Assembly (NCBI RefSeq): GCF_963675165.1
Contig: NC_087377.1
Span: 11,394,632 to 11,458,631 of the forward strand
Direction of reading: 5' to 3'
Source: Halichondria panicea
Taxonomy: Eukaryota; Porifera; Demospongiae; Suberitida; Halichondriidae
Length of the DNA: 64,000 nt
This document shows, in pieces, positions 6,276 through 40,734 of the stretch. Position 1 is the stretch's first letter, and each line of letters begins with the position of its first letter. Under the pieces are notes generated by a model. It did no database searches and was not told where the DNA came from. It was given only the letters and a program-made list of their open reading frames with translations. The translations under genes and the position numbers were made by a program.

Positions 6276-6817
6276 GTGAAAACTATCTTGTCAATTGTAG
6301 GGTATTTTGCTCTGACCTGCCTCAAATCGAAATTGAAAATGGTGTCTTGGAATATAATACGGAGGAAGATGCGTTTAATGCTACCAAGACCGAACGGAAC
6401 TGTTTCAACATACACATGCATATATATCCCAGTAGATACAGACTGGATGGAAATATATACCACAAGGATTTGTGACACTGGAAATTGGACGGGCACAGAA
6501 CCAGCATAATATGCATACATTTTATGCTATGTATACATGTATGATTGTATACGTATACATGTACATGTATAGTTATTATTGCGATCCTTCTGTATACTGG
6601 TGAAGCAATGGCAGTCAGTGTGGCAGCTACATTCACTATTTACATAGCGATTGGACTCTTGCTGGGGATATCTCTAATGTACTGCATTATGTGTTACAGG
6701 AATAGGGGACGCTATACAGTAAGACAGCGACAGGAAGAAAGCATTCAACCCACTGTTGTGCCAAGTGGTCCTGTTTATGAAGAAGTTACTCTACTCCAGT
6801 ACACGAGAATGAGATAA
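6276..6817 (+). pseudogene. Decayed CCP domain plus transmembrane/tail exon
   Basis: Between about 6305 and 6509 the sequence encodes pieces of a CCP (sushi) domain in two frames. The first half (PQIEIENGVLEY) and second half (GTVSTYTC ... RICDTGNWTG) need a frame change near 6370-6390. Downstream, a TATAG acceptor at 6571-6572 opens an exon (6573-6817) homologous to 1014-1282, with the same MAVSVAATFTI helix, the RNRGRYTVRQRQEES segment and GPVYEEV. It then diverges and stops after QYTRMR, losing the second NEAYGPL tyrosine motif. The order CCP then helix/tail matches gene B, so this looks like the 3' half of a dead third copy. Confidence 0.6.
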
Positions 6818-10000: not shown

Positions 10001-10936
10001 CCTTATGTAAGGGTACACAGAGCATTGGGGCTGTAACTAGGTGTCCAAACAGTGGGAGACAGACACGAGAGAGCTAGTGATTGTACAATAGAGAGCTGTA
10101 ATTATGTAAGGGTACACAGAGCGTTGAGGCTATAACTATCCTAATGTAAGGTGTCCAAACAGTGGGAGACAGACATGAGAGAGCTAGTGATTGTACAATA
10201 GAGAGCTGTACTTATGTAAGGGTACATAGAGCATTGAGGCTGTAACTAGGTGTCCAAACAGTGGGAGACAGACACGAGAGAGCTAGTGATTGTACAATAG
10301 AGAGCTGTACTTATGTAAGGGTACACAGAGCATTGAGGCTGTAACTAAGGTGTCCAAACAGTGAGAGACAGACCATGAGAGAGCTAGCTATAGTGATTGT
10401 ACAATAGAGAGCTGTAATTATGTAAGGGTACACAGAGCATTGGGCTGTAACTAGGTGTCCAAACAGTGGGAGACAGACACGAGAGAGCTAGTGATTGTAC
10501 AATAGAGAGCTGTAATTATATAAGGGTACACAGAGCATTGAGGCTGTATAACTAAGGTGTTCAAACAGTGAGAGACAGACATGAAAGAGCTAGTGATTAT
10601 ACAATAGAGAGCTGTAATTATGTAAGGGTACACAGAGCATTGAGGCTGTAACTAGGTGTCCAAACAGTGAGAGACAGACTATGAGAGAGCTAGTGATTGT
10701 ACAATAGAGAGCTGTAATTATGTAAGGGTACACAGAGCATTGAGGCTATAACTATCCTAATGTAAGGTGTCCAAACAGTGAGAGACAGACCATGAGAGAG
10801 CTAAGTGATTGTACAATAGAGAGCTGTACTTATGTAAGGGTACACAGAGCATTGGGGCTGTAACTAGGTGTCCAAACAGTGGGAGACAGACACGAGAGAG
10901 CTATAGTGATTGTACAATAGAGAGCTGTAATTAAAG
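10001..10936. repeat. Tandem array of about nine ~100-bp units
   Basis: Each unit contains TATGTAAGGGTACACAGAGC, then GGCTGTAACTAGGTGTCC, then AAACAGTGGGAGACAGAC, then GAGAGAGCTAGTGATTGTAC and AATAGAGAGCTGTAA. Unit starts are near 10003, 10103, 10213, 10313, 10420, 10519, 10620, 10718 and 10832. Length differences come from small insertions such as ATCCTAATGTAAG and a CTAGCTATAG variant. The units carry enough variation to order them by age. The array sits downstream of the 3' end of gene A. Confidence 0.9.
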
Positions 10937-11393: not shown

Positions 11394-13258
11394 CTAATGC
11401 TTGGCGTAGTGTTTAGGAGGCCGTGGTGGTAACGGGGACTCGTCCTTAGGGACTGGTTTGGGGGGGCGGACTGGAGTCATCTCACTGTGAGGGGGAGATA
11501 GATAAAGGATTGTTAATGCATGTACGTATCCATTGTGTGTAGAATTAAGAGTGTTTAGAACATAACATGTATAGCACGAATTGTGTAATGCAATTGGTCA
11601 TTAAAGACTATACGTTATAATTATAGAGAAAGAGAGCGAGAGAGATCAAAAATAACGGTCCTGTCATTGTCTGAGCCATAAGCTTGAGCATGACTAGCGC
11701 TAGACAAACGTCTACACAGATGGAGAGTACGTTCAATATAGACTTACGCTTTAGGAGGACGTGACGGAGGCAGCGTCTTTGACTGTCCTGGACTGTCGTC
11801 CGTCATGGTGGGTGATCGAGAGGGGAGGGGAGGGGGAGGGGCTCGGTCGTACTTGTACACGGTACTTGGTACAGCCTTCATGTTCAATTCTACTGGGAGA
11901 CGACCTGTGAGTGTGAGTGTGTGTGTGTAGTATTGAGTCATTGTATTGTACATATTTTATACTGGTGGATTTGAGCACTCAAAAAAGCACAGAAGGAATA
12001 CTCTGGAGCCATTGTCAAGCTGTACACATTATGCATGACCGCATCTTCTCAGAGTGATAAGAGTGAACTGATTACACACATGTTAGTCCCTATTTAGTGA
12101 GCTGGGCCCCCCATTGTGTTCAGTATGTGAACCACATTGTCAGCCTATACACACACACACACAGTACACTGGGTGAGGTGACTACCTGAGCTTTAAGCGT
12201 GTGTCAGCATCTCCATGAACACACAGTGGACAGGTGTACACACTAATAACATGGTAATGTATACCATAACTACTTGGAGTTAACAGCTGTTAAACATACA
12301 AAGAGTCTCATTTTGGTAAACAGGGAAGCATGTTATATATACCACAGTTCTCAATGAATGGAGAGAAGAGCAAGAATGTGGCTTGTTGTAAAGTAAAGCA
12401 GTTGTTGTGTCTAGTAGTTGGGTAGTTAGGACACAACACAATACTGCCCACACAATCAAGGGAAGCCAGGTGTGGGCCCTTGGGGTAAGTGGATACGTGT
12501 GTACATACATGTACATGTACAAGTACATGATTATAATGATAATGACCTTTTGTGATGGCAGTTAGAGAGAGAAGGTAATTTGAGTACAAAATCGTGACTG
12601 TCAATTAGAAAGGCTATTAGGGTTGCTTAAACATCGGTATAGCAATAACAATAACATGTTTTTCCAACAACATACAGTCGATTGTGAGTATTAAACATGT
12701 ATACGGACACAATGACAGGCCACTATTACAGCAACACACATGAAACCACTACTCACCAGTATTATAGATATTCAGGAGTTCTTGCGACAGTTGCTCTTCC
12801 CCGATATTATGGAGATGACCAGCCAGCTCCCTCCAGGTTGGTCGCCCAGAACAGTTTCTCATCCACTGGTCGATCACCTCCGTTAGACATCCACTATGGT
12901 TGATTCCACATGAATCCTCGATCTAAAATGAGATATTTGAGTGAGTTACACCAACAATAGATTGGCACTTCTATTTGTACGATTAAGGTGTGACCAGACA
13001 ATGGGTTAATTATAGACTTTTAAGAGAGTTATTGTTATCAACTTTCATCATTAAAAAAAAACATTCCTTCACACCACGTACAGAACAATGATTGACCCTT
13101 GATAGATTTAAGATTAGTAAGTACCTGCTCAATCATTGTCTCTGGCAGCCTCACAGTCTCAGCCAGCTCCCTCCATTTGTGTTCCATTGACCTGATCTGG
13201 ACCAAGGCCTGGTCAATGTCCAGGAGCTTGTCCACATCAGGCAGGGCTGGGGCTGAGG

Positions 13259-13293
<35 letters not shown>

Positions 13294-14289
13294 AGTGTGA
13301 CCTCGCTAATGCAAAGAGGCCACCTAAAACATATTTCAGTAGGCTATGCTTCAGGGCAGCACTATAGTTAGGTCACCTGTCACTGGAGGAAGCAATGAAT
13401 GCTATACACTTTCTAACACTCAAGCCATTGAGGGGAGTCTATAGCAGCTATATCTTGCTGCCCAACTCATGATCAGTGTGTGAATCCACATAACAAGGTT
13501 AGCTCTCAATCACCCACTGCCTTAAAAGGTAAGGGTAAAACCAGAAGCTGAAAACTTGACAGCTTATCAAAGAACCACCACTGGTTCCTAATCAGCTAGT
13601 CAGGTGATGGGATTCTGCCATTTCGGCAGATTAAGAAGAAGTGTGCTGTAATGTTGTCTGTTCCTGTTAGGATGCTTCTATCTTGTCTTTCCAAGTGTTG
13701 TTTTGCCTGTCTACCAGGAACAGACAACAACACTATAATTATACAGCTTAATCATACGGAATGGGAAAAAATGGAGATCTCGCTAGATATCTCTAACTAC
13801 CAGGAACGGACGCACTATGATACATTCTGGTACACCTATCAAAATCATTGACAATGACTCAAAGCTTAATCCCACAAACAGACTCACCTGTTGGGCTGGT
13901 GGGGAGGGTGGCTGCTTTGGCCTGTTTCCGGCTGGTGGCAGCAACATCCACAGTGGCGTAGGTCACCTGGTGCTGGTCCACTGTGGCAGTCGTATTTTTG
14001 CCTTTCTTGTGGGGCTGGCTGGAGCTAAGGGCAGCATAGACCACTGGCTCCACTGTAGCCTGAGGTGTCGGGAAACAAACAGAGTTAAGATTATCTTTCA
14101 GTTACAGATCTGTACAATGAGAAGCAGGATATTGCGGTAAGGCATTGTATTGGTGTACATGCACCACAGGACACATCTACACAAACAAACAGTTTCTTTA
14201 TGAACCAAAGATGATTTGTTTAACTTTAAATTAGTAGTTATAATGCCAACCAAAACAGACACCCAATAGTCACAATACTCTCACTAATG

Positions 14290-14336
<47 letters not shown>

Positions 14337-16873
14337 CACATTGCCGAGCTGGCCATAGCCGGGTAGTCTCTGAGTCTGCAGGAAAATAGAGTGCAATGAA
14401 CAATTGTGTCTAGATGAAATTACCTGTCCAGTGTTCATTGTACTGTAGCCTTCAGAGTTGATTCCTATTTTCTGTAAGGAGGAAAAATCAAAAATCAATG
14501 CTTTGTTCAATAGCTCTAGGTAGTGTTACGTACATTGTCTGAGTTGAGGACCACCTCATCGTAAGTTAGTGCCCCAGCATCCTGTATATGAATAATTATA
14601 TAGAAAGTAAGTGCACTGCACATTTTTTCAAGAGTTCATATGCCATTTTTGCTGAATGTGAGGTATACTAGTAGTGTAAACTGACTGAGCACTTCTCACC
14701 GGACTACGATTGACTCTGCTGTAACCCTCAGAGTCAGGAGGAGGAGGTTGAGCCTGGGGAGAGAGAAAGCGAACAAGAGAGTGGGGGTGGTGAGAGAGAG
14801 AGAGAGAGAGAGAGATTATTATAGGCTCTAAGTCTTACCTTCATGATGTACAGCAAAAAAATGATCAACTCACTTTCTTTGATTCTTTCCTTGGGCCGTC
14901 ATGCCTCAGCTCACTGTAGTCTCCCTGAGCAGTGACACATAGATACACACTACACACAGAGTTTACGGTCTTACCTGAAGTCCTGACATCTCTACCACAT
15001 CTTCTCTGAACTCGTCTGATTTCTGTCTCTTCAGTAAGAACAGGGCAATCACCACGATGCCTATGAGACACACCACCACCAGTATTCCACCAACAACACC
15101 ACCTACTATAGGTCCAATGTCAGTACCTGGGGGTGATGTATGGATAGAGCAGTGTAAAACTAAAAGTTTATATAAGTCACCTTCGGTTGGTGACATACAC
15201 ATTATTTCTTCAGGTGCAGTGCTCCAGACTCCAGCATTAGTGCAAGTGATGGTGTTGGGTCCAGTCAGTGAGAGTCCATTGTCACACTGGTAAGTCAGCA
15301 CTGTTCCCTCCAACACTGTCTCGTTCAACAGCTCATAGTCCACTATAGTACCGTTGAATGGTATGACAGGCACAGTGCAGTTGACTGTGAATGGCAGATA
15401 CATAATACCAATTTAAAAACACATTAATATCTTACCTGGGCTCTCCCTGCACACCAAGCTCCCAGGATTCTCCACCCACTCTCCCCTACCCCCCACATCA
15501 GTGCATGTACTGGTCCTCACATCAAGGGGGAACAGTCCATCTTCACAGCGATAGGTGACCTCTGAACCCAGTGAGAAGGGTGGTGTCCCACCATTGACGT
15601 CCACACTGCCATTGGATGGTGCAGCAGGAGAGCCACAGGTGAGATCTGAGAGGAGGGGACTATAGCATACAATGCAGCCATGACAACTTACCTGAGAGAC
15701 ACATGTAAGTGGTGGGGTCAGGTGACCATCGTCCATCACTCTCACAGGTTGAAAGTACCATCTGTCTATTGCAAGTGAAGCTTAGTGTTGATCCTATTAG
15801 TACAGGCAGTGGTGGACGACCATTGATGGTCACTCGATCCGCAGGTGGTGGATTAGAGGGGCAGGTAACTGCATTGGAGAAACATAATATAAGGTGTAGG
15901 TTACTAATCCATAGAATGCATTCCTGCTATTGGTCACTTCTACTAACCAATAGCAGGAATCACCACCATTACAGCACTGCTATTGCCAGCACAGTTGACA
16001 GTTTTGATGGTCACAGTGTAGTGAGTGTCGTAGGAGATGGTTATCTGTGCCAAGGTGGTCTCCACGGTGACTGGTGACTCGGAGAGAGGTGTTGGGGAGA
16101 TGGTGAGGGCATAGCTGACAGACACACCGCCAGTAGAGGAGGGGGAGTCCCAGTCCAGAGTGATAATGGAAGAGAGAGTTTGATTTTGAATGGAGGAAAT
16201 TATTGGGTTGAGTGGAGAAGTTGGGGCACCTGCAAATTCATGATTAGCTGCATGGAGAATTTAAAAACTCACCAGCAACTGTGACAGTCTGTTGTGACTC
16301 TATTGCAACACCATTATTAATAGTAGCAACACAGGTGACATTGCTACCATCCAGTACAGACACTTCACTGAGGTTGATGAGAGTGGACGTCAGATTTCCA
16401 TCATCATTGCTCACAAAAACAGCCTCAAACATGATCACTCCAGATCCAAATGTGTCCCTTCGACCAACTTGTGAGAATATATTGAATGGATTAATTTGTA
16501 CTTCTGACATCAACATAGACTCTGCTGGAGGATCTACTCTCCATTGCAATGCAACACCACCAGGTACGAAGCATGTGAACAAAACTGTCTCTCCAGGACA
16601 CGCCACACTCGTGTTATACATCAGATCCAAAGTGGCCTCTGTTTTGGAAACAAAATGACAGAAGTATCTAATAGGGCAATAATATGGTACAGTTACATGT
16701 ACTTGAATACTGAATACACATGATACATCTGCTATCAGCCTATCTACCTTAAAACAGTTACATAGCTACGTACCGGTACCCAGGCTAGATCTAGTCTAGG
16801 CACGAACTTTACCTGCAACAACAAAAGATGATAGGAGATAGAACAGGAGACATATCTGGACAAGAAGATCCAT
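11394..16873 (-). CDS. Gene A: Ig-Fn3-CCP3 receptor with seven tyrosine motifs, death domain and proline-rich tail
   Basis: Single-pass receptor, 803 residues. Exons in order: 16873-16813, 16638-16273, 16229-15948, 15868-15692, 15645-15436, 15384-15181, 15126-14975, 14924-14874, 14753-14700, 14581-14534, 14471-14424, 14375-14337, 14059-13888, 13258-13125, 12922-12757, 11904-11748, 11484-11394. All have AG acceptors and GT donors, and every junction keeps phase. Residues 1-20 are a signal peptide, 21-142 Ig, 143-236 Fn3, then three CCP domains to 433, helix about 440-465. Cytoplasmic tyrosines are Y487 (YSEL), Y512 (YSRV), Y526 (LTYDEV), Y544 (YSTM), Y558 (YGQL), Y572 (VVYAAL) and Y598 (VTYATV). 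Residues 622-721 match a death domain (HKWRELAETVRLP, then GRPTWRELAGHL). The tail has SH3-ligand-like PPLPSR and PPRPPK. Predicted role, by inference: extracellular recognition coupled to phosphotyrosine and death-fold signalling. Ectodomain junctions are all phase 1. Confidence 0.87.
13261..13291. repeat. (TG)n microsatellite abutting a death-domain exon
   Basis: On the minus strand this is a CA run that ends directly in the AG acceptor of the exon starting at 13258, so it occupies the place of the polypyrimidine tract. Confidence 0.85.
14297..14333. repeat. (CA)n microsatellite next to a tyrosine-motif exon
   Basis: The dinucleotide run begins a few bases past the GTGAGT donor of the 39-nt exon at 14375-14337 (TG-rich on the transcribed strand). 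A GA run at about 14795-14814 lies just upstream of the acceptor for the exon at 14753. Confidence 0.85.
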
Positions 16874-19346
16874 CGCTACTGCATGAAAACAAATCCCAGC
16901 TAGCTAGACATAAACTGCACAGCCCCCTCATGCTCATCCGTGACAACAAGGCCACGCCTCCGGGGCAATTTACTGTAAGTCGGAACCTGGTTTGGGATTT
17001 CAGATTACCTTCATTTTTGTCATGCCGTGCCACTAAGCGTCTTTATATCCACGGTTCATTGAATTCGCCCGAAAATCATGGCTCTTTTCTTCGTCTTTTT
17101 TGTAAGTCAGCAATAATAATAATGTAGATGTATAATAAAATTATTATTGAATTAGATCTAGTTATGCTGTGTGAATGGTCAATGACTGTACTTGTGCATA
17201 TCTCCTATCCGTCTATTCTTGAAGTATGTACTCATAGTAAATGCTATCATTCTGTTGCTCTGTTAATTCTCAGACTGCTGTGATTGCCCACATGCTAGCA
17301 AGCAGTAACGGTAAGAATCCAGTGGTGTATAGGTACCGTATAAGCTCTTTTTAAGGCGCCCCTCTAAAGATGCGCCATAAAGCCTCCAAAGTAATTTTTG
17401 AAACTCTAAATGGAGCTCCACCACGTGTGAGTATGGCTGCGCGTTGGTAAATAGAGGTAAAATGAGCAAACAGATCACAGAATTCTTCCTTCCACATCTG
17501 GGCAGCCCTCAAGCCAAAAGTAACCACAGTACCTCTTTAACGTGTACAACCTAGCCTGTTGGAAGACCAAGAAAACTGCTGCAGGTGCCTGGCCCTGTGG
17601 CATCAAGCTAGCTGTTCTGAACTTCATGGAGTAACCAGGTAAGATAAGGGGGTGCTCCAGCACCTATGCTTCCTACGCTCCTGACATGCACAGTCCATTT
17701 GCAAAGCTATTTTTTACCTCCAATTAGAAGGCGCACCTCTAAAGACACGCCATCCAGTCTCGAAACTAATTTTTCAACCTCCTAATAGAGCCACCTTTAC
17801 CAGCGTAATTATTTTAATGTGGCGCCTTAAAAAGAGCTTATACCGTAGATGTTTTTACAAAGAGGGGCGATGATACACGCTCACGTCATACACATAATAA
17901 AAGTCCATATTAATTTCTGCGGCTTTCCCCTAGGGAGATTTTAATCCAGTGCAGGTGTATTGTAGTATATTAAAGTAGTGCTCGTGCAACTACAGTGCAT
18001 CCAGCTTAGAGAGTAGATTACCACAAATTTGTGAGTAGCTGTACTTAAATGTAAATATCTTTCGATTGGAACATTTCTAAGAAATTGTACTGATACTATT
18101 GTGTAGGTGAATGATAGCCTCCTTTGCAGCCTCTCCTTTTTCTGTTCTTTGTCACAATAAGAGAAGGGAGGAACAAAGAAAGAAAGAAAAGGAGACGCGT
18201 GATCCCCATACTGACGTAGACACATTTTAACGAGCGTAGGCGAGAGAAAACCTCAATAACTGTCCTCCCACACAGTACTTGGAACGCATTTATTATCTAG
18301 TGTATAATTAATTTTATGAACAGTAACATGAGTAGAGTAGGCCTTCGTGAGACCTTTAGTCAGTAGAGAAAGTATGAAAGACTAGAGTAGACTATACTGC
18401 TGTAGATCTAGTCAAGTGGGTCTGCTGAACTCAGGAAAAAAACTGAGCTAAATTTAGATGTAGATCTAGATCTTTAGTCTTCAGTCTTTACTAGGTAAGC
18501 CCTCGTCTACGATGTCTCCACACTTGATTCTGGCTTACTATCCATGATGCTTTTATGTTAGAGTTTGCAATGCGTAGGCATGCTGTAGCGTTTTGCTCTG
18601 TCAGGCTCCGCCCAGCTAATGATTGCCCACGCTCATTTTCACTTGTCTATACCACTTGTCCACTGTCACGCGACTTAGCAAGGCAGGCTCTCCTTTTTCT
18701 TTGTCTTTTCCTTCTTTCTTTCTTTGTTCCTCCAATTTGTCCCGTATTTTATCTTATTGAACTATTGTGACAAAGAACAGAAAAAGGAGAGGAGGCTAGG
18801 TGAATGACCAAACATACTCAAAATGTTTCCATGAAACATACGGTGGTGGGTTTGTGGTGATTAATAGAACAACAGCAAATTGTTATAGTGGGTAATCGGT
18901 TAGAGTAATAAAACAGCAATCTTGTACAGCTAAGGTCCTAGTCGTCTTCATCACATAATTGTTCAATGATTTAGATATCCTGACCATCCCTTTATGGGTC
19001 TTACATATGTTCACAGTGTTTATAATTCATGATTTACTTGTTTTTAGGTACACTTTTGGTTAGAGTAATAACTTCTAATAGCTTAGCTTTCAAATTGTAG
19101 TAAGTTTACAGATAAATGGGCTACATTTTGATACCAAGAACATCCTATATGCTTATTCCATTGCGGAGATAACACTGAAAAGCTACAGAATTTCTACTGT
19201 TTGATGACATCAGCAGCTACAAACCAATGACGCTTTAATCAACCGCAAGCTTAATTAAGAGTGGGCGTACAGTTATTGTATGCCCACTTACGTGGTTAAT
19301 TAGAGTGTCATCGATTTGTGGTTAGCAGCTTGTGATGTCATCAAAA
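15181..19346. repeat. Inverted segmental duplication, arm 1
   Basis: Reading this segment in reverse complement gives the segment 36609-43120 (arm 2), apart from a transposon insertion at 38883-40946. Matched blocks include exons 1-6 of genes A and B, the MITE at 17334-17847 (38204-38717), the repeats near 18100-18780 (37150-37900) and the first part of the fold-back element (36609-37120). Similarity is very high through exons 1-4 and lower in exons 5-6. The break at the 19346/36609 side is sharp. Confidence 0.85.
17334..17847. repeat. MITE with CGTATAAGCTCTTTTTAAGG ends
   Basis: Inverted ends (CCGTATAAGCTCTTTTTAAG on the left, the complement on the right with one mismatch) with flanking TA enclose about 510 bp. 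The interior carries repeated GCGCC-TCTAAAGA-GCGCC-type motifs. The inverted duplicate at 38204-38717 is nearly identical. Short open frames inside have no recognisable domain. Confidence 0.75.
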
Positions 19347-19511
19347 CAGTAGAGAATATGTAGTTTTTCAGTGGTATCTCAAAAGCATAGAGGATTTTCT
19401 TGGTATCAAAATGTAGTCCATTTATTTGTAAACTTACCAGAGAACTTTTAAAGCTAAGCTATACAATTTTCACTCTAACCGTAAGTGTACCTAAAAACCG
19501 GTAAATCATGA

Positions 19512-20095
19512 AAGCACCGCAGGTGCTGATGCCTCGGTGGAGATGCCAAAGCTACATAACATAAAGCTACTAAAAGCTTTTATACACTCATTAGCCTCGA
19601 TCCCAGGCTGCACTTCACTCAGGGAAAGGCCGGTGTAGGAGGCTATACACTCATATCTGCACTCATATGATTAACATTTTTGCATGCAAACTCGAAGAGT
19701 GGGATTGTTGTTAAAACGATCGATGCCAAAAGTTCAAGTCTAAAATTAATGGCTGCACCAGCAGAGCCTTACAGCTCTCTTCTCACTCTTGCAGCTACCA
19801 ATAGCTAGCGTTCTAGTGCAGAGCTAACTATTAAGTAGAGTAGCAACACTCGGTAAACAAGTTTGGCTACGTGCTCTTCTGAAAAGGCTGCAATGGCATT
19901 CCAAGTAGGCATAACTCGAGAACAAAGTATTATTTTGCAAATCCACGAATTAAAATCCAAGTAAACATAACTAGAAGCCTATAGAAACTCTTACTTGCAC
20001 TTGATTCATCCTTGAGCAGCTGTAGCAGTCTACACACACACACGCACACTAACACACTACCGTATACCTCACTTGCGCATGCGCACCGAGGCATA
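19512..20095. repeat. High-copy dispersed repeat inserted in the fold-back element
   Basis: It interrupts the palindrome's right arm between ATGA (19508-19511) and ATGA (20096-20099), a likely target duplication. One end reads CCTCGGTGCGCATGCGCAAG on the opposite strand. Fragments of the same sequence occur near 3404-3440 and 59600-59750. I recall this repeat as abundant in Amphimedon queenslandica, which supports the organism call. Type unknown; no coding capacity was recognised. Confidence 0.65.
19592..19645. repeat. 54-bp TAG...CTA mini-element with perfect 9-bp duplication
   Basis: The element starts TAGCCTCGATCCCAGGC and ends GGAGGCTA. TACACTCAT stands directly on both sides (19583-19591 and 19646-19654), an exact 9-bp target duplication. 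The left end matches the ends of the 5.6-kb element at 44087-49647 at most positions (TAGCCTCGA, CCAGGC). Confidence 0.85.
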
Positions 20096-20670: not shown

Positions 20671-22326
20671 ATGCACTGTTCTTATAAAACTCCAGGTCAA
20701 GTAGTCTCCCTAATGCCACCTCTTGAACAAGGTGACTTTTACTGTGATCAGGACAGAATAACCTGTATTGGAACTGGAGGAGTTATTTCATGGACAGCTC
20801 CACCATCAATCCCTGAAAACAATCCACGAGGTTTTAGTTCTTCTAGCAGTCTACAAACGCCTGTATCATTTGGTAATGTTGAAATAACATTGACTAACAT
20901 TGTGCCCGGTACTCCTCCTAATCTTACGTCGGTAATGACTCTGTCAAATATCTCTGAGGTAAACGTAACTTGTCAAACAGAAGTGTCTGGTTCTCTGCAA
21001 GCACTAAATTTAATTCGTTCAAGTGAGTTACCATAAATTATTGTGGTGTGTGTAATGCCGAGCTTTTAGTGCATTCCATTACAATTTGCAGTAACACCTT
21101 CAGCTGCTAGTAATCTTCAAGTTCTACATATAAGTTGCACGTCATTCAGAATTACTTGGACGGCTGCTACTGAAAACTATGATCTAATGCACTATGTTGC
21201 TCAAGTTTATGTTGATGACTCGGCAACGCAATATAATACCACGAACACCTCTATGGATTTGGACCTTCCACTATCTGGTGGAGAGAGAATCCGTGTAACT
21301 GTTGCTGTTGTGACCAGATGTGGTCAAGTTAGTATGCCAATCAATTCCGATGTCATTGTCTTCGTTTATACAAGTGTCTGTGAAAGTAAGCTAATTATTA
21401 TTGTCATGCCAACTGCTTATCAATGCACTTTTTATTTTAAGATTTGTGTAGACCATGTGACAATAGAGGTTTAATTGCTTCTGTGATTATCGGTGGTGTT
21501 TCACTTCTGCTTCTTGTTGGTACTTGGACAAGTATTTTGGTTATTTTGGTAAGTGAACAGTTATTGACACACGTATTTCATTTTGTGTCCAATTTTATAA
21601 TGAATGATGTTGTTTTAGTGGCGGAAGTGGCAGTGCCGAAAAAAGAGTGTTCATCAATCTCAATCGGTTAGTTATTGTTCATTGTACATGTGATAGGTGT
21701 ATTTGATGTGTACCACCCGAGGGAGTACATATCAGGGTGTCATACAAGGGGAAAGGGGGCTTTAATTCCACCCCCCCCTAAAATTTGCATTCTTGTACTA
21801 GTTGTATGACGGAATGTCCATAGCTAACGGAGTATTAGACAGAGATACAGTACAGAGAGAAATAACAGTTGACCTTTTTTTTAGTTGGTTACTTTTCTTA
21901 TTTCCCCCCTCTACTTCATAATCCTGTATGACATCCTGCATATACAACTGCACAAGGGTTCAAATTCTATGATAAACACATTTACAACTGAGTAGTGTCA
22001 ACACTCTTGATCTTCACTGTGTGCTTTCGTATTGTGCCAACCATAACTATAACTAGTTAAGAACTACCACTCTTATAAAGGCAATGCAGCATTTTTAGGT
22101 GATGCTTTAATTAGGTTTCAATTTTATATTCCTGGAGGGTTTATGGATGTCATACCCTGATATACCTTTTTGCTGTAGGCATCTGGCACTGAGCTTAAAA
22201 CGACAGACTCACAATCGGTTAGTTAGTGTGTACATATGTCATATGCATTCAACCATTGATTACGATTTATATTGTATGCTTGACGGTGCGTACATAATAG
22301 TCCTCGTTTCTTAGGAACCAAAATGA
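20671..22326 (+). CDS. Ig-Fn3 single-pass receptor, 5' end lost
   Basis: Exons: to 21022 (Ig domain, with ITCIGTGGVISW around the first cysteine and VNVTCQTEVSG around the second), 21092-21385 (98 codons, Fn3-like), 21442-21548 (helix, IASVIIGGVSLLLLVG), 21619-21666 (basic WRKWQCRKK), 22179-22217, and 22315-22326 ending EPK then TGA. Junction phases agree throughout. The first exon has no signal peptide. The bases CTAAGCTGGATGCACTGT just before it belong to the duplicated block also present near 18000, so the true 5' end was probably cut off by that rearrangement. The tail is short, basic and has no tyrosine motif, unlike the other receptors here. It could be a non-signalling partner or a dead copy. 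The stop in the last exon could be bypassed by other splicing. Confidence 0.6.
21732..21948. repeat. MITE in an intron, related to 9509-9733
   Basis: Starts CAGGGTGTCATACAAGGGG and ends CTGTATGACATCCTG. It lies in the intron between the 21619-21666 and 22179-22217 exons of the Ig-Fn3 gene. Confidence 0.55.
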
Positions 22327-22653
22327 TGTGGGAAATGAACGATTGTTCCTTTAATGAAGTAAGTGCAGGAACCTTTAATCCATTTGTGAATGCATTGATT
22401 GTTGATGACATCTGCCTTTGAAGCTGAATTGTGTAATTGCCTTTTATAATTATAAATAACAATGTTGTACCTTCTCTCTTTTGTAGGCTTCAAGAAAGAA
22501 AAAAACTATTGTAGCGTTATGCCCAGCTAGGATTGCGAGAGTATAAGTAGCTACAGTAAACTACTCTCTTTCAGTTCAACATGTGTTTAAGATGCAAGAT
22601 CACAATACTGCGCATGCTCAGTAGACATAAGAGCATGCATAACAAAATACATA

Positions 22654-26340: not shown

Positions 26341-27119
26341 CTAATAAGTTAAATCTACAGTTGATGTTGCTGACTGAAGCTCAGGAGCACTGTCCATTGA
26401 GGTGAGCAAGAGGTTAGAAGGGGTTACCCTATCAAAATGGCATTCCAAAGTATGAATGAGCTCTATGTGGTAGCCCTTTGGTTGTGAAAGCTGAAGGATC
26501 TTATTAAGTACTAAGTCTGAACATTTTTCTTGTTGATGAAAGTGCTCGTTTGGTCGATAGCAAATCCAATGGTAACGTTGGCTGTCTGGTTGCTTACAGA
26601 AAATGTAGATTTCTGTCTTCAACAAGTTAGCTGCTGCATAGATTTCAACTTGCGTACCCCAGTAGCCAATAGCTTCCATTTTCTTGCAGTGAGCCTCAAG
26701 GGTACCATCAAATACATATCTTTGAAATAAATGGCTGCTTTCTCGTGTGTGTCGGATAAGCATTTGTCGGACTGTATGGTGAAATTTGTCATGGCCCAAG
26801 ATCTCTTTGGAAAGTGCTCTAAACAGACAATTTCCATCAGCTTGAATGTAGTCAATTCTCCGTTGTTTTCCCAGCATATTCTGAAATAGTTTATATCCTT
26901 CTGTGTTCGGTGCAGGATTAATAATGCATCTTGTTTCGTGTATATGATCTGCTGTCTTTTCACTTCCCAACAGAGACAGTGAAAGCTGGCGTCTGTAACT
27001 CCGTACCATTACCTCATGTGTTGAGTAAAGCCCACCTGAACTTGGAACATATTGCGGAGGGACAGGAATATCTGCAAAATCTGCATTGGGTAGCTTCACA
27101 AATCCCGGGCAAGACCTGA
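26341..27119 (-). CDS. OTU-family cysteine protease domain of the Mutator-like element
   Basis: A 252-residue open frame, extended slightly upstream by a TTTCAG acceptor before the codons for SCPGFVKLPN. It carries the OTU signature: DYIQADGNCLFRAL with the catalytic cysteine near residue 91 and aspartate at 88, GYWGTQVEIYAAANLL in the middle, and a C-terminal CHFDRV with the probable catalytic histidine near residue 221. OTU domains cleave ubiquitin-type conjugates. The frame is intact and is the best preserved part of the element. It lies at the 3' end of the minus-strand gene string and may have been the C-terminal part of the transposon protein or a separate product. Protease capture by transposons is known (for example ULP1-like in plant MULEs). 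The role here is unknown. Confidence 0.8.
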
Positions 27120-27289
27120 AATAACCCTATTGAAGGTATATAAGAGTGCGACAACAGAATCAGTGCTATACGTACATCACAAAATTCCTTTTCTGATACT
27201 TTCCCCTTTTCTTGCACTTCAAGTTGTGGTGTTGAAGCTGCACCTGTATAAATAATTATTGTCTCTATGCGATTACAAATGTGGTATAT

Positions 27290-28100
27290 GATTATATGGT
27301 ACCCCCCCTTACCACTAAAATGGTGTATAGTCTTGAAATAACATTTGCCACATCAGCTTCTGCTTTTGCAGTACGAATGCACTTGCGTTTGATGCAGCAC
27401 TGTTTCTTAATTCCTGCATGGTCCACCATTCTTAGGCTTGTCCAAACAAAACTTACATTGATTGCAGTCTGTACTAATGCATCCTGGACACTGTTCACAC
27501 CGTCTTTGCCTCTTCCGACCTGCCATATAAAGTGTAAAGTTGTGTGGTGTAAAGTAGTCAGGTGTACTTTTTGAATCACTATGAATGGTTTGTGTTTTAC
27601 TGGATAGTTGTTCTGGCACTTGCTTTGTCTTTACCCTCTGCATGAACTCATTTCGTGACTCTGACACTTCTTGTGCAATCTTAAAGTATATGACACACAT
27701 ATATAATTATGGCCTTGTAAAATAATTATAATAGTCCTCACCTTTTTGTACCTTAGTGCTTTGTTCCCTACACGGCTTTTAAAATGCCAGTCCTTTTTTT
27801 TGTGGTGGGTCTTTGAATGCACGGATAGAGAGGAATATTTAAGGGATTTTTGGTGCAGTTTTTTGGTGCAGTTTCTTGTACTTTTGTGATATCTTCTTTG
27901 CTGAATGGGTAACGAGGGCAGGTCTTAAAAGTAAACCTCCTTCATGTGGCAACATTCCTCTGAACTTAGCCTCCACATCTTTAAGCATTTGATCAAGGTG
28001 CCGTAGCTTTGTGCTGTCAGTGCAGCTGTATGACAGAGACTCTACCACTTTTAGTGTAGTCAGAACTTGTTGTCGTGTTTTTTGAGTAGAAACAGAATGC
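27290..28100 (-). pseudogene. CXXC zinc-finger segment of the Mutator-like element
   Basis: Reading the minus strand from about 27530, RKRQRRCEQCPGC then DCNQCKFCLDKPKNGG matches the CXXC zinc finger that binds unmethylated CpG DNA in DNMT1, MBD1 and KMT2-type proteins. Its last cysteines (QCCIKRKC) follow in another frame after a one-base shift near 27420. Upstream on the same strand (28048-27839) is a charged, helical segment without a recognised domain. This is an unusual DNA-binding module for a transposon and could have guided targeting, which is inference. The frameshift marks this copy as broken. Confidence 0.65.
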
Positions 28101-28152
28101 TATATATAATATAAGCATGAAGTATATAATTATACATATACATGATTTGTAG

Positions 28153-30834
28153 TTAAATCAAAATACTCACCTCATGTTGGGGAATGTCATCTGTAATCGT
28201 TTTTTCTTCTTCACTCAGGTAAGCAGATGCAATGCTAACTGGAGCGTCACTATTGGATAGAGGAGCTGAGTCAGCAGTAATATATTCATTCTTAAGGTAG
28301 TCCTTTGGTAAGCTCATCCATCCCCAGTTTGGAAATTTTTCAAACACTGCAAAAAAGTGTTTGCAAGGTATGTGCCAGCGTGTCCAATCTTTGCAAGAGC
28401 ACTGTGGCATGTTTTCGTCGTTTGTGAACTCAAGTGTATGTTGCTTTCCCGAGGTAGTCTTAACTGTGAATTGACCTTTCGTACCATTTTGTTCAATTGA
28501 CGCTTTAGGGAATTTTTCAGCTTTTCTGATTCGGGTCAAACAGTGCAGAATTACTGACCTAGGCCGGCCTCTCAAATACTCAGGAACAAACTCGTTGTAT
28601 GATCTGTACGAATCTGACATAGCAAAGTTGTCTTTCTGATACTTCTGTAGCATGCATGCTGGGCAAAAACTCTTCTACCAAAATTGTTACTAGATGTGAT
28701 AGCGTTGTATTTTTTCCCTTTGGTAAATAGTTGTATTTCAATGTTTTGTTCATTAATTGCTTCAACCCCATTGTTGGTGTTTACAGCGGCATGGTAACAA
28801 TCATCCCTATAAACTCTGGCCCATAGCTGTAATGGGATCAAAAGTACAGTCACATCATAATAATCATAATACAACCGTTTTTATTTTCTCGTACCACTCA
28901 GAATAATTATATGCAATAATTATTATGTGACAGACGTACAATATTACAGTGGAACCCCTCTATAACGGACACCTTTGGGGAACAATGTTTTGGCCTTTAT
29001 ACAGAGGTGGCCTTTGTTGAGAGGTTGTTTTACACAAACTGTTCATTTGGGACCTGGGTGCCTGGCCGTTATATAGCAACTGGCCTTTATTCAGAGGTGG
29101 TTGTTAAAGGAGGTTCCACTGTAGACGATGCTTACCTTTGGGATACTTAACCATTTTGTATTGAGCCAATCCCTCATGGTGTTTCCAGATGTTGGATGGT
29201 CATCTATCGCTTTTTGATAGTAGAATTCTGAGGGTAACCCTGACACGTTTTCAGTTGGTGGAGCATTAGCACATTCCCTTAACATAGATAGAAGACATTC
29301 CTTTTCATCATTACTGAGACTATGTTTGTGATTATTTGTCCACCTCTCCCATGCTTGTTCGCGATGAAAATCACATAAATATATTTGTACACCTGGAAAG
29401 GTCTGTTTAAGAGCCAGAAGTTCAGCCTCCAAATAATCGGTCATGAAAAATTTGGGGTTCCACTTAGGATTCCATTTATGTAACAGTTGTAAGGCCTCAG
29501 ATACATGTTGAGCCGTTTCAGACTGAGTAATAAACTCACCAACCACACTGTACCCTACATTCGTTTTGACACAAATAAAAAATAAGGCCAAGTCGTAACG
29601 TGTGGTTTTATACGTTGCATCTTTATATTGTTCCCATAACGTTCCAGTAACTTTTTGCCATTGTGTTTGGTGTACATACAGGAAACTTTGAGAGCATTGC
29701 TTGTGAGATCCTAAAACCTCACACCAGTCATCATCACCTCCAGAGTTTCCTTGAAACCCTTTGGTTAATGTGTCTTCCTTTTTGTTTTCCTCTTTAGGTA
29801 CTTCTTCTGATGATTGATGGTGCGTTTCAGAATCTTCAGACGAGATGTAAGGGCGAAAGAAAAAGGTACTTTCCCTGTCATGTTCTTCCCATTCTTTAAT
29901 TTTGAGTCTCAAGTTTTCTTGATCAAATTTTGAGAGCTCTAGTGCTCTCTTTGCTCGATACACATGATTTTTGATATCAACATTGTTAGGATAAAATGCT
30001 CTGTCATGGGCTTGTGGTTTGAATCCAAGCTCTCTACTAATTTGGTTGTCTGTGTAGTACTTCAAGAGCTTTTTTACCTCGTGTACATCAGTAATATTAG
30101 CTGACACTAGCTTTGAAATTTTTGATAGTAGCAAGGGGTGTACTTTCTGTGCAAATGCAATATCTGCTCCAATCAGGTGGCTGCTGTGTGCTTCATTCGT
30201 AGGAAGCGATACGAAGTATTTTGTTTGTTTTTTCGGGGTACCTGTAGCCAATTCATTCCTTAATTTTCCCAATTTACCTTCACGTAGTAGCCGTAACTTC
30301 CATGGACTGAGCCCTTCTTTTTCCTGCTTTGTGATCTGATAGTCGGGATACAGTGTATATTTAATAGTTTGAATGTGTGCACAACACCCAATTTTTCTTG
30401 TGCCTTGTAGTCGTAGCCGAGCATGTTTGCACTCTTTCTTTCGAAAGTAGTGTTGACCATATTGGCAATCTAAAGTTGTTGTTTGTCAACAGAAAAAGGC
30501 GTATCTTTAAAGTTGACTGCATTTTTCTTCTCCCAGAAAATCTTCGCCGCCTGACTGCTACAAGCAGGGACCTCCTGCAGAGTGAAAGACTCTTACATTA
30601 ATTATACTACTCTGTTTATTGTCTCAAGTTTGTTTATTGTATTATTACCTTATTTTCCTTTTCTTGTGTTTTTTGAGCAGTGCTAGTGGACCGTCGAATA
30701 CCAAATGTTGATACTGTGTATGCTTGGTGCTGCTGTCTCAACACGTCCAAGACTGTGTCATCAACGTAACCTTCATAGTATAGGCCAACTCTCCTCAGGT
30801 TGTGTTCTCCAACCCACTGTGGTGCTGCATCCAT
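28153..30834 (-). pseudogene. MULE-type transposase with SWIM zinc finger, frameshifted
   Basis: From 5' to 3' on the minus strand: an exon at 30834-30634 (MDAAPQWVGEHNLRR...). A cysteine-containing FLYWCH/FAR1-like segment follows (CKHARLRLQGTRKIGC, LYPDYQI), which needs a frame change near 30480. Next is the long frame to 29091 with the MULE core: DLALFFICVKTNVGY, PKFFMTDYLEAELLALKQ and QIYLCDFHREQAWERW. Finally comes a SWIM zinc finger at 28480-28330 (CSCKDWTRWHIPCKHFFAVF). More frame changes lie near 28745 and 28655. A TA-flanked MITE (28947-29121) sits between the core and SWIM parts. The order transposase core then SWIM is standard for Mutator/FAR1 proteins. Inactive copy. Confidence 0.75.
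28947..29121. repeat. MITE with CAGTGGA ends inside the MULE gene
   Basis: Same family as 764-943: starts CAGTGGAACCCC, ends GGTTCCACTG, flanked by TA. It lies between the transposase core and SWIM segments, so it either interrupts the gene or sits in an intron. Confidence 0.8.
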
Positions 30835-31039
30835 AGCTAGCTAGCATGCAGTAATGATAGATCTACACGTACACACGTGTACCATGTGCATTTATTAAAT
30901 CAAGTTTCCCTCGCAAATACCGCGGTAAATGACATTAGGATCACGTGCTCCTCATCAACTTAGGTGAACTTAGTCTATCCCACTTTCACTACTCGCGCTG
31001 CTGGAACCCCCCCTTTCATTTTTCCTGGATCCGCCACTG

Positions 31040-32325
31040 CTATAGTGTACAATTTCCAATGATGAAAGGGTATTATCGCTCACCTTGACAATACATCCCA
31101 GGCCCAGCCACTTGTGGACACCCCTGAGCATAGTATATACAAGATATCGATGGCCAGAGTCTGAGGATAGACTCTACCAAGTGTATTTGGCAATCAATGG
31201 TCTAATCAAGCGCTTGTATTAAATTGTGTAGTCAATCAAAGGTAGCCAACTGATAGCAGAAACTTGAGAACCTAGGTCTGTTCTTTCACAAGAGTGATGC
31301 TCCTTCTTCCTTCGCACAAGACAGCTCCTCACACTCTAGCTAAGCCTATATCTATGACAAACTAAACTTGCAAAGAATAGACCTCCTATGACACGGAGTT
31401 CTTTGTGATTTAACGGTGATTTTACGGAGTAAGTATGCTTACATACACTATTAGTGTTTCTATTCGCTCCACCTTGCTCAGGTATTCGCTCTTTTCGAGC
31501 GAATATCTGAGCAACCACAGCACATGCCCAGATACACGCCCAGATACAATCAATAACAGGCCGAGGAAGCGACCTAGCGTTCAATTGGAGACGAATCGAG
31601 GCTACATTTGCGATAGACCAGTGGGTGCAGTCTTGTCTAGTGATGACTTTTGTCAGTAATTTTCCATGACACTGATGTAGAACCATAGCAATCTATCTAG
31701 ACGTATCATGTATGTCTATGCAATTCTTATGGATCATGTAATCAATCATGTAATCATCAGTAAAGAAGGTGAGAAGTAATAAATTCAGTTGATAAATGAT
31801 ACACATGCAGGCTACAATATACATGTCTACGTTGTTCTACCAGAGATTATCTCTGTTTCTACTATAGATTTTAGTTCTATACATTAGTAATATGTACATG
31901 CAGCATCTGAGATCTTGAGTGAAAATTTAGTTTAGTGTACGAGTGTCTGATGATTTTGATAAAATTAATTGGCTTCCTTCCAGTTTTGTAGCATCTTGCA
32001 GTATATACATGTTCCTGTGGCGAACCATCCTTTGCATGCAGATAAAACAAGTGGTGCTCTTTGGACATTGCACATACAATGTGCTTAAACCTTCCCAACC
32101 ACACAAAAGTCTGCTCTCCAGCTTGGGTGTTTGCAGCTGGAAATTTTTCTTTAAGAATTTTGGGGGGATACTTTTCTTTGCACTCTGGGTTGACATGATT
32201 GGGCAGGTGAAAAGAATCGATGATCTTGTAACTACGCTTCGTTCACCGGAGGTGGTAAGGGGAAAGTATTTTTGCCACATTTAATCGTGAACATTGCATG
32301 CACATGCATATTGTCATACAAGATA
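31040..32325. other. Interval without a supported gene
   Basis: At about 31527-31608 is an inverted relative of the sequence at about 24575-24650 (shared CGTTCAATTGGAGAC and CCTAGCG), ending CGAATCGAGGCTA, so it is a fragment of the TAGCCTCGA-type family. A minus-strand open frame at 31927-32280 looks moderately coding-like but shows no domain and shifts frame near 31980. Confidence 0.4.
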
Positions 32326-33030
32326 CAGTAGTCTAGACTCTCGCTATTCCGGCTCCCTGAAGTACGGCCACCTCGATATACCGGCCATTTGGCTTGGCAC
32401 GGAATGCTAGCTATATGTTTACTGCACAAAACTCACCCTGAAGTACGGCCACTCGCTATTCCGGTTACCGGCCAGTGCTGGCTGTCCCAAACAGGGTTTT
32501 CAATGTAATTTTATACGTGTATTACGGCCGGATATGACGTTTTGGGTGTGGTTTAGCAAATAAAATTGCTTAAATAGGGAACATCATTATCCTACATTAT
32601 CCTCGAGACAAGAACCGCAAAAAGTAGTCATTAGATTCGAGGTAAGGTCGTTTTTAAGCCGCGGCTATTTCCTGAGCTGCAGCCACCTCGCTATTCCGGC
32701 CAAGCTGCATGGTCCCAAGGGTGACCAGATTAAGTAGACTCTCGTTAATCCGGTCACCCTTGGGACCATGCAGCTTGGCCGGAATAGCGAGGTGGCTGCA
32801 GCTCAGGAAATAGCCGCGACTTAAAAACGACCTTACCTCGAATCTAATGACTTTACATTGAAAACCCTGTTTGGGACAGCCAGCACTGGCCGGTAAACGG
32901 AATAGCGAGTGGCCGTACTTCAGGGTGAGTTTTGTGCAGTAAACATATAGCTAGCATTCCGTGCCAAGCCAAATGGCCGGTATATCGAGGTGGCCGTACT
33001 TCAGGGAGCCGGAATAGCGAGAGTCTACTG
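32326..33030. repeat. Palindromic double copy of the CAGTAGACTC MITE
   Basis: The first half (to about 32735) reads like 22654-23027. The second half (about 32735-33030) is its inverted copy, so the whole 705-bp unit folds on itself. Outer ends are CAGTAG and CTACTG with flanking TA. The internal junction retains a GTAGACTCTCGTTAATCCGG end. Confidence 0.8.
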
Positions 33031-33059
33031 TACTATCAAAAGCTGAGTAAGGCAATACT

Positions 33060-34169
33060 AACATTTTTGGATGTTTTTTAGATGCCAGCAAAGCTTTTGC
33101 TAGAGTTAACCATACTACATGTACCCTGTTTAAGATGCTTATTGATAGGAACATTCCTCCCACAGTACTGCGATTTCTCTTCTCATGGTACAGGGACCAA
33201 GAACTAGTTGTTCGCTGGAATGCAGATATTTCAGCATCTTTTAATGTTTCGAATGGTGTACGTCAGGGTACATGACGTGGTGTTCTCTCTCCAATCCTTT
33301 TCACGGTTTATATTGACGAGCTCCTGCAAAGACTATCTCGACTTGGAATTGGTTACCAACTTGGTGGGCACTCTGTCTGTGCACTTGGTTATGCTGACGA
33401 TATAGCCCTTCTGGCCCCCTCACCATCTGCCATGCGTATCTTATTGAAAGAATGTGAAGCATTTGCCTCTGAATTCGATATAACTTTTAATGCCAGCAAA
33501 ACTCAGCTTATTTGTTTCAGCAATCGTTCGATGACACTACCTAACGGAGTTTTCAGGTTCAATGGAGTTGCTCTTCAGTTTACAGACATAGTGACCCACC
33601 TTGGCCACACCCTTCATCGCAAGTTGGATGACGAAGTTGATATTGCACAAGTAACTTCCGTTATGTGCAGGAAAGCTAACTACCTGCTCCATACATTTAG
33701 TGGGTGTGATATGAGAGTGAAAACTAAGCTAATTGTGACCCACTGCCTTTCACTATATGGTTGTGTTTTGTGGAGACTTGACAGTAAGAAAATTCGTGCT
33801 CTTGAAACCGCTTTTAACAATATTTTGAGGAAAATTTGGAGATTGCCTCGTCAATGTCACACAAGAATTCTCCACTGTGTTGCTGGAGTTCAGAGTTTGT
33901 TTAATAGAATACCAGATATTTTTTCGAACTTCATGTCACGTGCTTTAGCATCTAAATCCACCCTCATTAGATCAGTTTTCTCATGGGCGTCTAGCCATGC
34001 ATTCACAGCAGTCGGGGCTAACAACCTGATCAAAAGGAATTTTATTAAAGTTTATAGCAGTGACGACATGGTTTGTGCGGACTTTGTTCGGGATGTCAGG
34101 CTAGGCCGCATTTCATTCAACTCGCGTGAAGATACATCAATGATAATTAACTCTATCTGCTGCAATTGA
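33060..34169 (+). pseudogene. 5'-truncated non-LTR (LINE) reverse transcriptase
   Basis: The reading starts at DASKAFARVNH (fingers/palm), continues through NGVRQG, has an in-frame stop near 33270 before GVLSPILFTVYIDELL, then LGYADDIALLAPS, which is the catalytic YADD box. It finishes with the C-terminal part (FSNRSMTLPNG ... YGCVLWRLDS ... ILRKIWRLP) to a stop at 34169. There is no endonuclease domain, so the copy is 5'-truncated as is usual for LINEs. The 3' end is followed by an ATT microsatellite (34262-34291). The YADD box with SKTQLICFS resembles Jockey/CR1-type elements; the clade is uncertain. Confidence 0.85.
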
Positions 34170-34261
34170 CTTTAAGTTGGACTAACTATCTTGCACTATA
34201 GTTCTATACTATTACTATATACATGTAATATAATATGTACACCTATTCCTGGTGTGTTCAA

Positions 34262-34291
34262 TGATAATTATTATTATTATTATTATTATAT
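34262..34291. repeat. (ATT)n microsatellite
   Basis: About ten ATT units directly between the LINE 3' region and the transposase relic. It could be the LINE tail. Confidence 0.8.
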
Positions 34292-35199
34292 CAGTTGGGT
34301 TGGTGACAATTTGCAGTAGGTTATCGTGTTTCCTTAAGTAGTTTTTTACAAAACTAAACATTTCTTCTGCCGGATTGAGATCAGGACTATACGGTGGAAG
34401 AAATAGTAAAAGTATGCCCATTTGTCTGAATAGATCTGTGATATCTTGAGTGTGCACAGACAAATTGTCCATTATAACAATTGAACAAGGATTATATCCG
34501 TTGAATGGTAGCTGTTCGGTATGAGGGATCGTCTTGCATATATATAGTCAAAGAAACTTCCGCATCAACATTATAGACTTAGTAACTTCAACAGCTACTA
34601 CACCATCAGTGCTCATGCCAGCAATATAGCATTAACTCTTTGCCCACGACTCAACAGGCGTTTATTCTGTGCAGGTGCCAATGCATATCCATACTTTCTG
34701 ATATGATCTCTGGCATCTGAACCCGTTTCATCAATAAATACAAACTGGTCTGGATTAAATAGTAAACACTGAGCCATAAATGCTCCACGGAGTGTATAGC
34801 ACCTTTGGAGAGCTACTTGTTGAATCTTCTTTTGAGTGATTCCATATCTTCTAAGTAGCCGACAAATAGTTGGGGGAGTCACCACAACCCCCATTGCTTC
34901 CTCCAATTCGTGGCACACCTCAGAGAGATACATGGATGGATCCTCGAGCACCATCCCAACTGTATATATTTCTTCATGTACACTTAGCTTTCTCAGCTCT
35001 CTCCTTTGTTCGCTCAGTACAGGGTCTACTTTTCCTGTTTGCTGAAACCTCGTAAATATACTGTATGCTGTGCTTGCTGCAGTATTTAAGTTAGTAGCTA
35101 TCTTGTCATAGGTAAGATTCATACCAATTCTTTGATAGACTATACTCTCCAGCGTAGATATGTGCCATAGGCTTTCTTTCTTCCCGGTTCAGCTGACAT
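34290..35199 (-). pseudogene. IS630/Tc1-type DDE transposase relic
   Basis: The minus strand from an ATG at 35199 reads MSAEPGRKKAYGTYLRWRV, then shifts frame near 35145 into a helix-turn-helix region (YDKIATNLNTAASTAYSIF) and a winged second half (TPPTICRLLRRYGIT). The catalytic core has FVFIDETGSD (first aspartate), IVIMDNLSVH (second) and LPPYSPDLNPAEEMF (glutamate), the DDE triad of the IS630/Tc1/mariner superfamily. Between the first and second aspartate the frame is broken near 34550 and 34520. Terminal repeats were not identified, so element ends are unknown. Confidence 0.8.
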
Positions 35200-40470: not shown

Positions 40471-40484
40471 CTTAGTTACTTCTT

Positions 40485-40734
40485 TCAGCTAATTACACAT
40501 TTTATTTTCATTATTACCTGTGCTTCAAGAAAGCTGCTATATCTACCGAAACATTTCCTGCACATTTTGGGCAATCTGTTTTTATCACTGCCATTTATAA
40601 TACTGTTAATGTGGACATCAGCACACATCTGTTCTTCCTCATTCTCCAGTAGCATTGTCCACAGGTCCAACACTTCCTTTACCAGGCCTTGATAGCTCAT
40701 CCCCACATCCAAAACATTGTAACACTTGGGCCAT
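40485..40734 (-). pseudogene. CxxC zinc-finger exon at the right end of the RecQ transposon
   Basis: An ATG at 40734 reads MAQVLQCFGCGDEL. After a frame change the strand reads LPKMCRKCFGRYSSF. The pair of CxxC motifs with that spacing resembles the first gene of 44087-49647 (CRLCSS ... LPQYICRKCKEAF) and looks ZAD-like. Both genes begin just inside one terminal repeat and point inward toward the helicase. The body of the gene downstream is missing. Confidence 0.5.

Follow-up and report, generated by a model that had tools for sequence, protein, structure and literature searches.

Recognition receptors with cytoplasmic tails of the immunoreceptor tyrosine-based inhibitory motif (ITIM) or activation motif (ITAM) type are reported in tunicates and cnidarians (PMC12065747). 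The fester co-receptors (FcoRs) of Botryllus schlosseri are clustered genes that combine immunoglobulin (Ig) and sushi domains, one transmembrane (TM) segment and tails with ITIM, hemITAM or core Y-x-x-I/L/V motifs, with exchange of motifs by splicing reported at some loci (PMC12065747). In Fas (CD95), tyrosine phosphorylation of the receptor's own death domain via Src-family kinases and SHP-1 sets death or survival (PMC4778973), while Siglec-11 and Siglec-16 are described as having extremely similar extracellular coding regions and unlike functions, a pattern attributed to gene conversion (PMC5701461). Sponge Ig-TIR receptors (PMC12909245) and an Ig-CARD gene of Dysidea avara (PMC6208332) are reported to join an Ig ectodomain to a TIR or death-fold domain. 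Here, we analyze two receptor genes, A and B, in a 64,000-nucleotide stretch of contig NC_087377.1 (the window). On balance, gene A is best read as encoding a type I membrane receptor that belongs to a local cluster and has its recognition head in common with gene B, the two genes carrying different signaling tails.

Results

Genes A and B share a head and differ in their tails

Gene B was found by searching the gene A receptor against the window. Its exons 1–6 are exactly equal in length to exons 1–6 of gene A, and the encoded heads are identical at 397/433 residues, with the Ig-like, fibronectin type III (Fn3) and first complement control protein (CCP) modules nearly so and CCP2 and CCP3 at 83% and 76%. 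By analogy, this arrangement has the anatomy of vertebrate paired receptors. At the nucleotide level, identity from A position 19350 to ~15700 is mostly 98–100%; two 100-bp bins fall to 95%, the edge at 19300–19399 is ragged, and 41 substitutions separate the 3654 aligned bases of the A side at 19360–15693. An identical run of 1,538 bp spans both gene starts, and the first 304 bp upstream of the ATG match at 304/304 positions. Identity is 81–91% per 100-bp bin in the CCP2–CCP3 stretch and 45–48% from the TM exon onward, which is the level of chance alignment.

The same gradient is present in the synonymous divergence (dS) of exons 1–6, which reads in order 0, 0, 0.014, 0.023, 0.126 and 0.258, and in the counts of substituted bases, 11/886 in exons 1–4 versus 52/414 in exons 5–6 (Fisher P = 2e-17). 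Since the divergence in exons 5–6 is of an older level, the paralogy of A and B in these exons predates the recent event. The sequences point to one of two histories, either an old paralogous pair whose 5' part was recently homogenized or an inverted copy of recent origin attached to an older relative. Within exon 2, five substitutions fall in 28 bp (A 16305–16332; B ~41796–41823), all of them amino-acid changing by the exon 2 count, while the exon is otherwise identical; a third copy may have donated this patch in a small conversion event.

The B side of the tract also contains a 2060-bp insertion upstream of gene B (38887–40946), whose ends are inverted relative to each other (TGGGCGGAGCCCG / CGGGCTCCGCCCA) and whose flanking sequence CATTCACAC is repeated. 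Beside gene A, the site is present without the interruption. One frame within the insertion matches Helicase_C at 20.9 bits, short of the 23.5-bit cut-off.

Seventeen predicted exons of gene A form one open frame

The gene A model (minus strand, 16873–11394) was assembled by hand from the DNA and then script-tested. As the preliminary description had claimed, its 17 exons are in perfect phase: GT-AG splicing yields a single open frame of 803 codons whose sole stop stands at the end. Exon 12 offers two candidate donors 3 nt apart, giving 803 or 802 amino acids (aa); residue numbering here follows the 803-aa form, whose donor was judged by eye to be nearer the usual consensus, and whole-protein Pfam scores were taken on the 802-aa version. 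The predicted protein consists of a signal-peptide-like start, a weak Ig-like domain, Fn3, three CCPs, one TM segment and a 338-aa tail. Exons 2–6 are phase 1 at both ends and encode one extracellular module apiece. Exons 8–12 measure 39 to 54 bp, are phase 0-0 and bear one Yxx[LIVM] site each, while exon 13 bears two; the intron phases after exons 7–16 are 0,0,0,0,0,0,1,0,1,2.

Coding character was scored with a codon model trained on gene A exons 1–7 and eight transposon-type open reading frames of the window, exons 8–17 being excluded. Summed log-odds for tail exons 8–17 reach +96 bits in frame versus +4 and +5 in the other two frames, which contain 16 and 20 stops. Single short exons score more weakly (exon 9, 2.8 bits in frame versus 5.5 out of frame), exon 1 is negative in all frames, and exon 12 (39 bp) is open in all three.

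The preliminary description had assigned Ig/Fn3/CCP recognition to the head, and the CCP part is firm, with Sushi scoring 63.4 bits over three stretches of the whole protein against a cut-off of 20.7. The Fn3 module remains under its cut-off of 25, at 17.7 bits in the whole protein and 23.3 bits for the exon alone, and a true Ig fold is not confirmed. The Ig-like exon has no significant match to solved structures by PDB sequence search, and structure prediction of exon 2 alone gives a poor model with seven strands and a predicted local distance difference test score (pLDDT) of 43. Cysteines 34, 43 and 123 lie in the Ig-like domain of gene A, the last being absent in gene B. Hydropathy peaks at 3.38 at residue 447, in the TM segment.

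The gene A tail carries a tyrosine-motif array and proline motifs

Inspection of the tail reveals that seven of its 11 tyrosines (Y487, 512, 526, 544, 558, 572 and 598) sit in Yxx[LIVM] sites, against a null mean of 2.1–2.2 (P 0.0012–0.0019 across three shuffle runs). All seven are N-terminal to the segment discussed below as a death domain, and the other four tail tyrosines are of different form. Strict ITIM forms, [ILVS]xYxx[LIV], number three (LTYDEV, VVYAAL and VTYATV) where ~0.45 are expected (P 0.007–0.009). Four class II SH3-ligand forms, P..P.[RK], fall in the last 83 aa, where shuffling gives a mean of 1.0 (P 0.01). The array of seven Y-x-x-hydrophobic motifs, the three ITIM forms and the SH3-ligand-like proline motifs noticed at the outset are thus all borne out.

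Classic ITAMs (YxxL/I-x6-8-YxxL/I) were rejected, with 0 sites in gene A and 0 in gene B, as was the immunoreceptor tyrosine-based switch motif, with 0 sites. One ITAM-like pair, YGQL-x10-YAAL across exons 12/13, fits the broad x6-12 form only (P 0.02–0.03), a weak signal because the pattern was one of six tried. Exons 9 and 11 share an SEGYS core and are alike at 19/27 nt, which 0/3000 shuffles reach, while the other nine pairs among exons 8–12 reach 12–15. This pair was chosen after the likeness had been noticed, and the similarity suggests that the two exons arose by duplication.

A probable death domain spans exons 14 and 15

The spliced 100-aa segment at residues 622–721 matches the Death profile PF00531 with 22.2 bits (E 1.6e-4), just under the cut-off of 22.6, over profile positions 13–83 of 86; in the whole protein, the match scores 16.1 bits (E 0.013). 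Neither the frame of exon 14 nor that of exon 15 matches when taken by itself, and 7/7 shuffles likewise give no match. The two-exon match of the preliminary description is therefore recovered only with the exons joined and depends on the exon 14/15 splice. Against solved structures, the segment gives nothing significant (FADD, E 0.24), and matches to glutathione transferase (E 0.1) and riboflavin synthase (E 0.19), both of which outrank FADD, were treated as chance. Single-sequence structure prediction of exon 15 alone shows three helices (pLDDT 69), as expected of the second half of a death domain. A fold search with this model returned 63 matches, none at E <= 0.001, with no death domain among the best 50 of the 63; those listed are LexA, cyclin, sigma-factor and other helical fragments, all at E > 1, and speak neither for nor against a death domain. 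Because the fold search is uninformative and the solved-structure search not significant, we speak of a probable death domain, which residues 622–721 of gene A probably form.

Other receptor-like genes and repeats in the window

The TM-tail exon of gene B shares 40% identity with a TM-tail frame at 1016–1279 and 33% with a shorter frame at 6593–6814. TM-tails of the B type thus occur twice more in the window, and the gene A tail is the unusual one. Taken as 6593–6817, the shorter frame resembles that at 1016–1282 without the second tyrosine motif (AYGPL), which is missing because its end differs, and is possibly a decayed copy. A gene-like chain at 20696–22546 combines an Fn3 match under cut-off, a hydrophobic stretch and a tyrosine-free tail. 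Receptors of related kinds in these 64 kb thus carry no fewer than three types of tail. On the minus strand, 60141–62502 is also gene-like: its start is signal-like, several stretches are hydrophobic, and one frame contains the words YDEV, SYG and YGQL; two frames of this region have no Pfam match up to E 1.

Past the 3' end of gene A lies a minisatellite of 7.7 copies of a 99-bp unit (10149–10933). Transposon-type frames occupy 26341–35188 and 48059–56844 and include OTU, SWIM, MULE, reverse transcriptase, RecQ-like helicase and Helitron_like_N domains, together with a phage-integrase SAM-like domain and an HTH_33 match just under cut-off. Searches of the window for tRNAs and for Rfam families at gathering score came up empty. 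Coordinates of genes A and B and of the tract are collected in Table 1.

Table 1 Positions of gene A exons, gene B and the shared tract in the window
Feature	Position	Strand	Description
Gene A exon 1	16813–16873	-	Start codon, signal-peptide-like stretch MDLLVQICLLFYLLSSFVVA; hydrophobic by hydropathy alone
Gene A exon 2	16273–16638	-	Ig-like domain, weak Pfam match (15.1 bits)
Gene A exon 3	15948–16229	-	Fn3 domain (fn3 23.3 bits, cut-off 25)
Gene A exon 4	15692–15868	-	CCP/Sushi 1
Gene A exon 5	15436–15645	-	CCP/Sushi 2
Gene A exon 6	15181–15384	-	CCP/Sushi 3
Gene A exon 7	14975–15126	-	TM segment and tail start, by hydropathy
Gene A exon 8	14874–14924	-	YSEL motif, phase 0-0
Gene A exon 9	14700–14753	-	YSRV motif, phase 0-0; SEGYS core common to exon 11
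Gene A exon 10	14534–14581	-	ITIM-form LTYDEV, phase 0-0
Gene A exon 11	14424–14471	-	YSTM motif, phase 0-0
Gene A exon 12	14337–14375	-	YGQL motif, phase 0-0; joined to exon 13 gives YxxL-x10-YxxL
Gene A exon 13	13888–14059	-	ITIM-forms VVYAAL and VTYATV
Gene A exon 14	13125–13258	-	Probable death domain, first half
Gene A exon 15	12757–12922	-	Probable death domain, second half
Gene A exon 16	11748–11904	-	Proline-rich, SH3-ligand-like sites
Gene A exon 17	11394–11484	-	Proline-rich end and stop codon
Gene B	41251–43454	+	Paralogue, 7 exons, 522 aa, GT-AG borders throughout, intact frame
Gene B exon 7	43186–43454	+	Own TM segment and short tail with YEEV and YGPL; not alignable with gene A
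Near-identical inverted tract, A side	15693–19350		Upstream region to CCP1
Near-identical inverted tract, B side	36597–42446		Broken by 2060-bp insertion at 38887–40946

Discussion

The closely similar head of gene B, which the preliminary description had overlooked, is the stronger reason for seeing an immune-type system at this locus. The preliminary description had proposed an immune-type receptor that routes to phosphotyrosine and death-fold adaptors; the anatomy of that proposal holds, while ITIM-type or death signaling by the gene A tail is a route that we infer from its motifs. Several observations weigh against the favored reading of gene A as a clustered receptor with a shared head. 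The heads differ at 36/433 residues, 29 of them in CCP2–3, and four of the remaining seven differences (C123Y, V124T, N128D and A132V, from A to B) form a single patch in the Ig-like domain, where C123Y removes a possible disulphide cysteine of gene B; the two heads may therefore not bind alike. The tail of gene B contains no strict ITIM or ITAM, and opposite signal signs for A and B are thus not demonstrated. In gene A, the Ig_2 match of exon 2 as a single module reaches 15.1 bits against a cut-off of 27, the Death match falls short by 0.4 bits in the fragment and by 6.5 bits in the whole protein, and no AATAAA or ATTAAA poly(A) signal occurs within ~590 bp after the stop.

Searches for relatives point the same way. 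Scans of viral contigs with exon 15, exon 2, the gene B tail exon and exon 13 yielded no relative, nor did scans of genome contigs with the spliced exon 13–15 peptide and a three-tail alignment. The scanned collections are viral and prokaryotic, and this silence consequently says little on animals. In the open-access literature, no sponge receptor with ITIM and death domain was found by title or abstract start among the matches listed.

Should the favored reading of a shared-head receptor pair hold, a mechanism can be proposed in which one kind of ligand is bound by both A and B. Kinases of the Src type, perhaps recruited through the proline sites, would phosphorylate the short tyrosine exons of gene A, and the phosphorylated tyrosines would recruit SH2 phosphatases or adaptors. 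The death domain, gathered by clustering, could nucleate FADD- or IRAK-type adaptors. In receptor B, such binding would lead to a phosphotyrosine output that is different and simpler. Similarity of the heads would be maintained, much as in paired receptors of vertebrates, through recent inverted gene conversion or duplication, and the five symmetric phase 0-0 motif exons may let splicing tune the motif content. Taken further, the locus might represent paired receptors of a probably early-branching animal, with one head recently homogenized by inverted conversion, a tail of ITIM-form, death and SH3-ligand elements set against a short YEEV/YGPL tail, and phosphotyrosine restraint balanced with death-fold output within a single pathway, in a natural killer-like logic that includes a death branch. 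We put this fuller picture forward only tentatively.

Two alternatives are each quite possible, if short of probable. Gene A may reflect ordinary domain shuffling in a marine invertebrate, its motifs acting as endocytic YxxPhi or generic SH2 sites and its death domain being just one among numerous lineage-specific combinations that lack any ITIM-type logic. Y-x-x-hydrophobic motifs also serve as AP-2 endocytosis signals, all seven gene A motifs fit YxxPhi, and 4/7 are not strict ITIMs, although the strict forms are enriched too (P ~0.008). Precedent exists in the sponge Amphimedon, for which 357 NCOA6-clade TRADD-N proteins are reported; many of these contain Death-family domains, and as many as half show a unique architecture (PMC8195603). 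Shuffling nevertheless leaves the sharing of the head between A and B unexplained. That likeness could in turn stem from a recent segmental duplication or conversion in inverted orientation, arising neutrally in a transposon-rich region and without functional pairing. Many transposon-type frames surround the tract, which extends ~2.5 kb beyond the start of gene A on its upstream side, where the sequence contains repeats, and has its outer edge within a palindrome at 19026–19512. Such neutrality sits less easily with the intact 522-aa frame and GT-AG borders that gene B retains, and with the older divergence of exons 5–6.

It is improbable that our model fuses two transcripts, one for a receptor that ends near exon 7 and another for an independent death-domain gene. 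The model was read from DNA alone, introns 13 (629 bp) and 15 (852 bp) are comparatively long, and Met 547 in exon 11 could in principle begin a separate protein. Exons 8–17 nonetheless stay in frame with fitting intron phases, exon 13 and the part of exon 14 that precedes the death match are free of Met, and AATAAA and ATTAAA are absent from the gene A strand between 16873 and 10801. More improbable still is an assembly artefact in which two haplotypes or a fold-back were merged; a near-identical tract inverted within a single contig would be its mark, yet the tails differ, exons 5–6 have diverged, and the 2060-bp insertion with its flanking repeats is found on the B side only.

Should the host be a sponge, this locus would take tails with tyrosine motifs, together with the shared-head layout that paired receptors display, to a deeper animal branch. 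Genes A and B offer a concrete pair for asking whether one ligand has two outputs in such animals, and the locus poses the question of whether a death domain can be connected directly to a tyrosine-motif recognition receptor.

Known systems each match part of this arrangement. UNC5 netrin receptors have Ig domains outside and tyrosine phosphorylation plus a C-terminal death domain inside, a combination that already tells against a strict separation of tyrosine-based tails and death domains. Unlike gene A, they possess TSP1, ZU5 and UPA domains, none of which Pfam finds in gene A, and they are not known to have a CCP. Sponge Ig-TIR and Ig-CARD proteins differ in bearing TIR or CARD rather than a death domain, and no tyrosine array is mentioned in the portions of those reports considered here. 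Siglec-11/16 resemble A/B in their conversion pattern within the extracellular part of receptors with unlike functions, whereas their ectodomain is of another type and their inhibitory and activating properties are stated in the source, where such properties of A and B would be hypothetical. To our knowledge, neither Siglec has a death domain. The Botryllus FcoRs, which by analogy appear the most similar in working, are likewise clustered and have Ig and sushi modules, one TM segment and a tyrosine-motif tail; they differ in pairing with fester proteins as presumed heterodimers with no shared head, and the term 'death domain' is absent from the main text of PMC12065747. Fas, like gene A, places a death domain and regulatory tyrosines in one receptor, although its ectodomain is of TNFR type and its tyrosines lie inside the death domain, versus a separate array in gene A. 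The premise of the preliminary description, that ITIM/ITAM-type tails and death domains normally occur on different vertebrate receptors, is accordingly too strong as worded, since in Fas tyrosine phosphorylation acts on the death domain itself (PMC4778973). The joining of tyrosine control to a death domain is already known from Fas; new here is gene B, in which a head much like that of gene A is combined with a short tail of unrelated sequence, and this shared head is the most testable new point.

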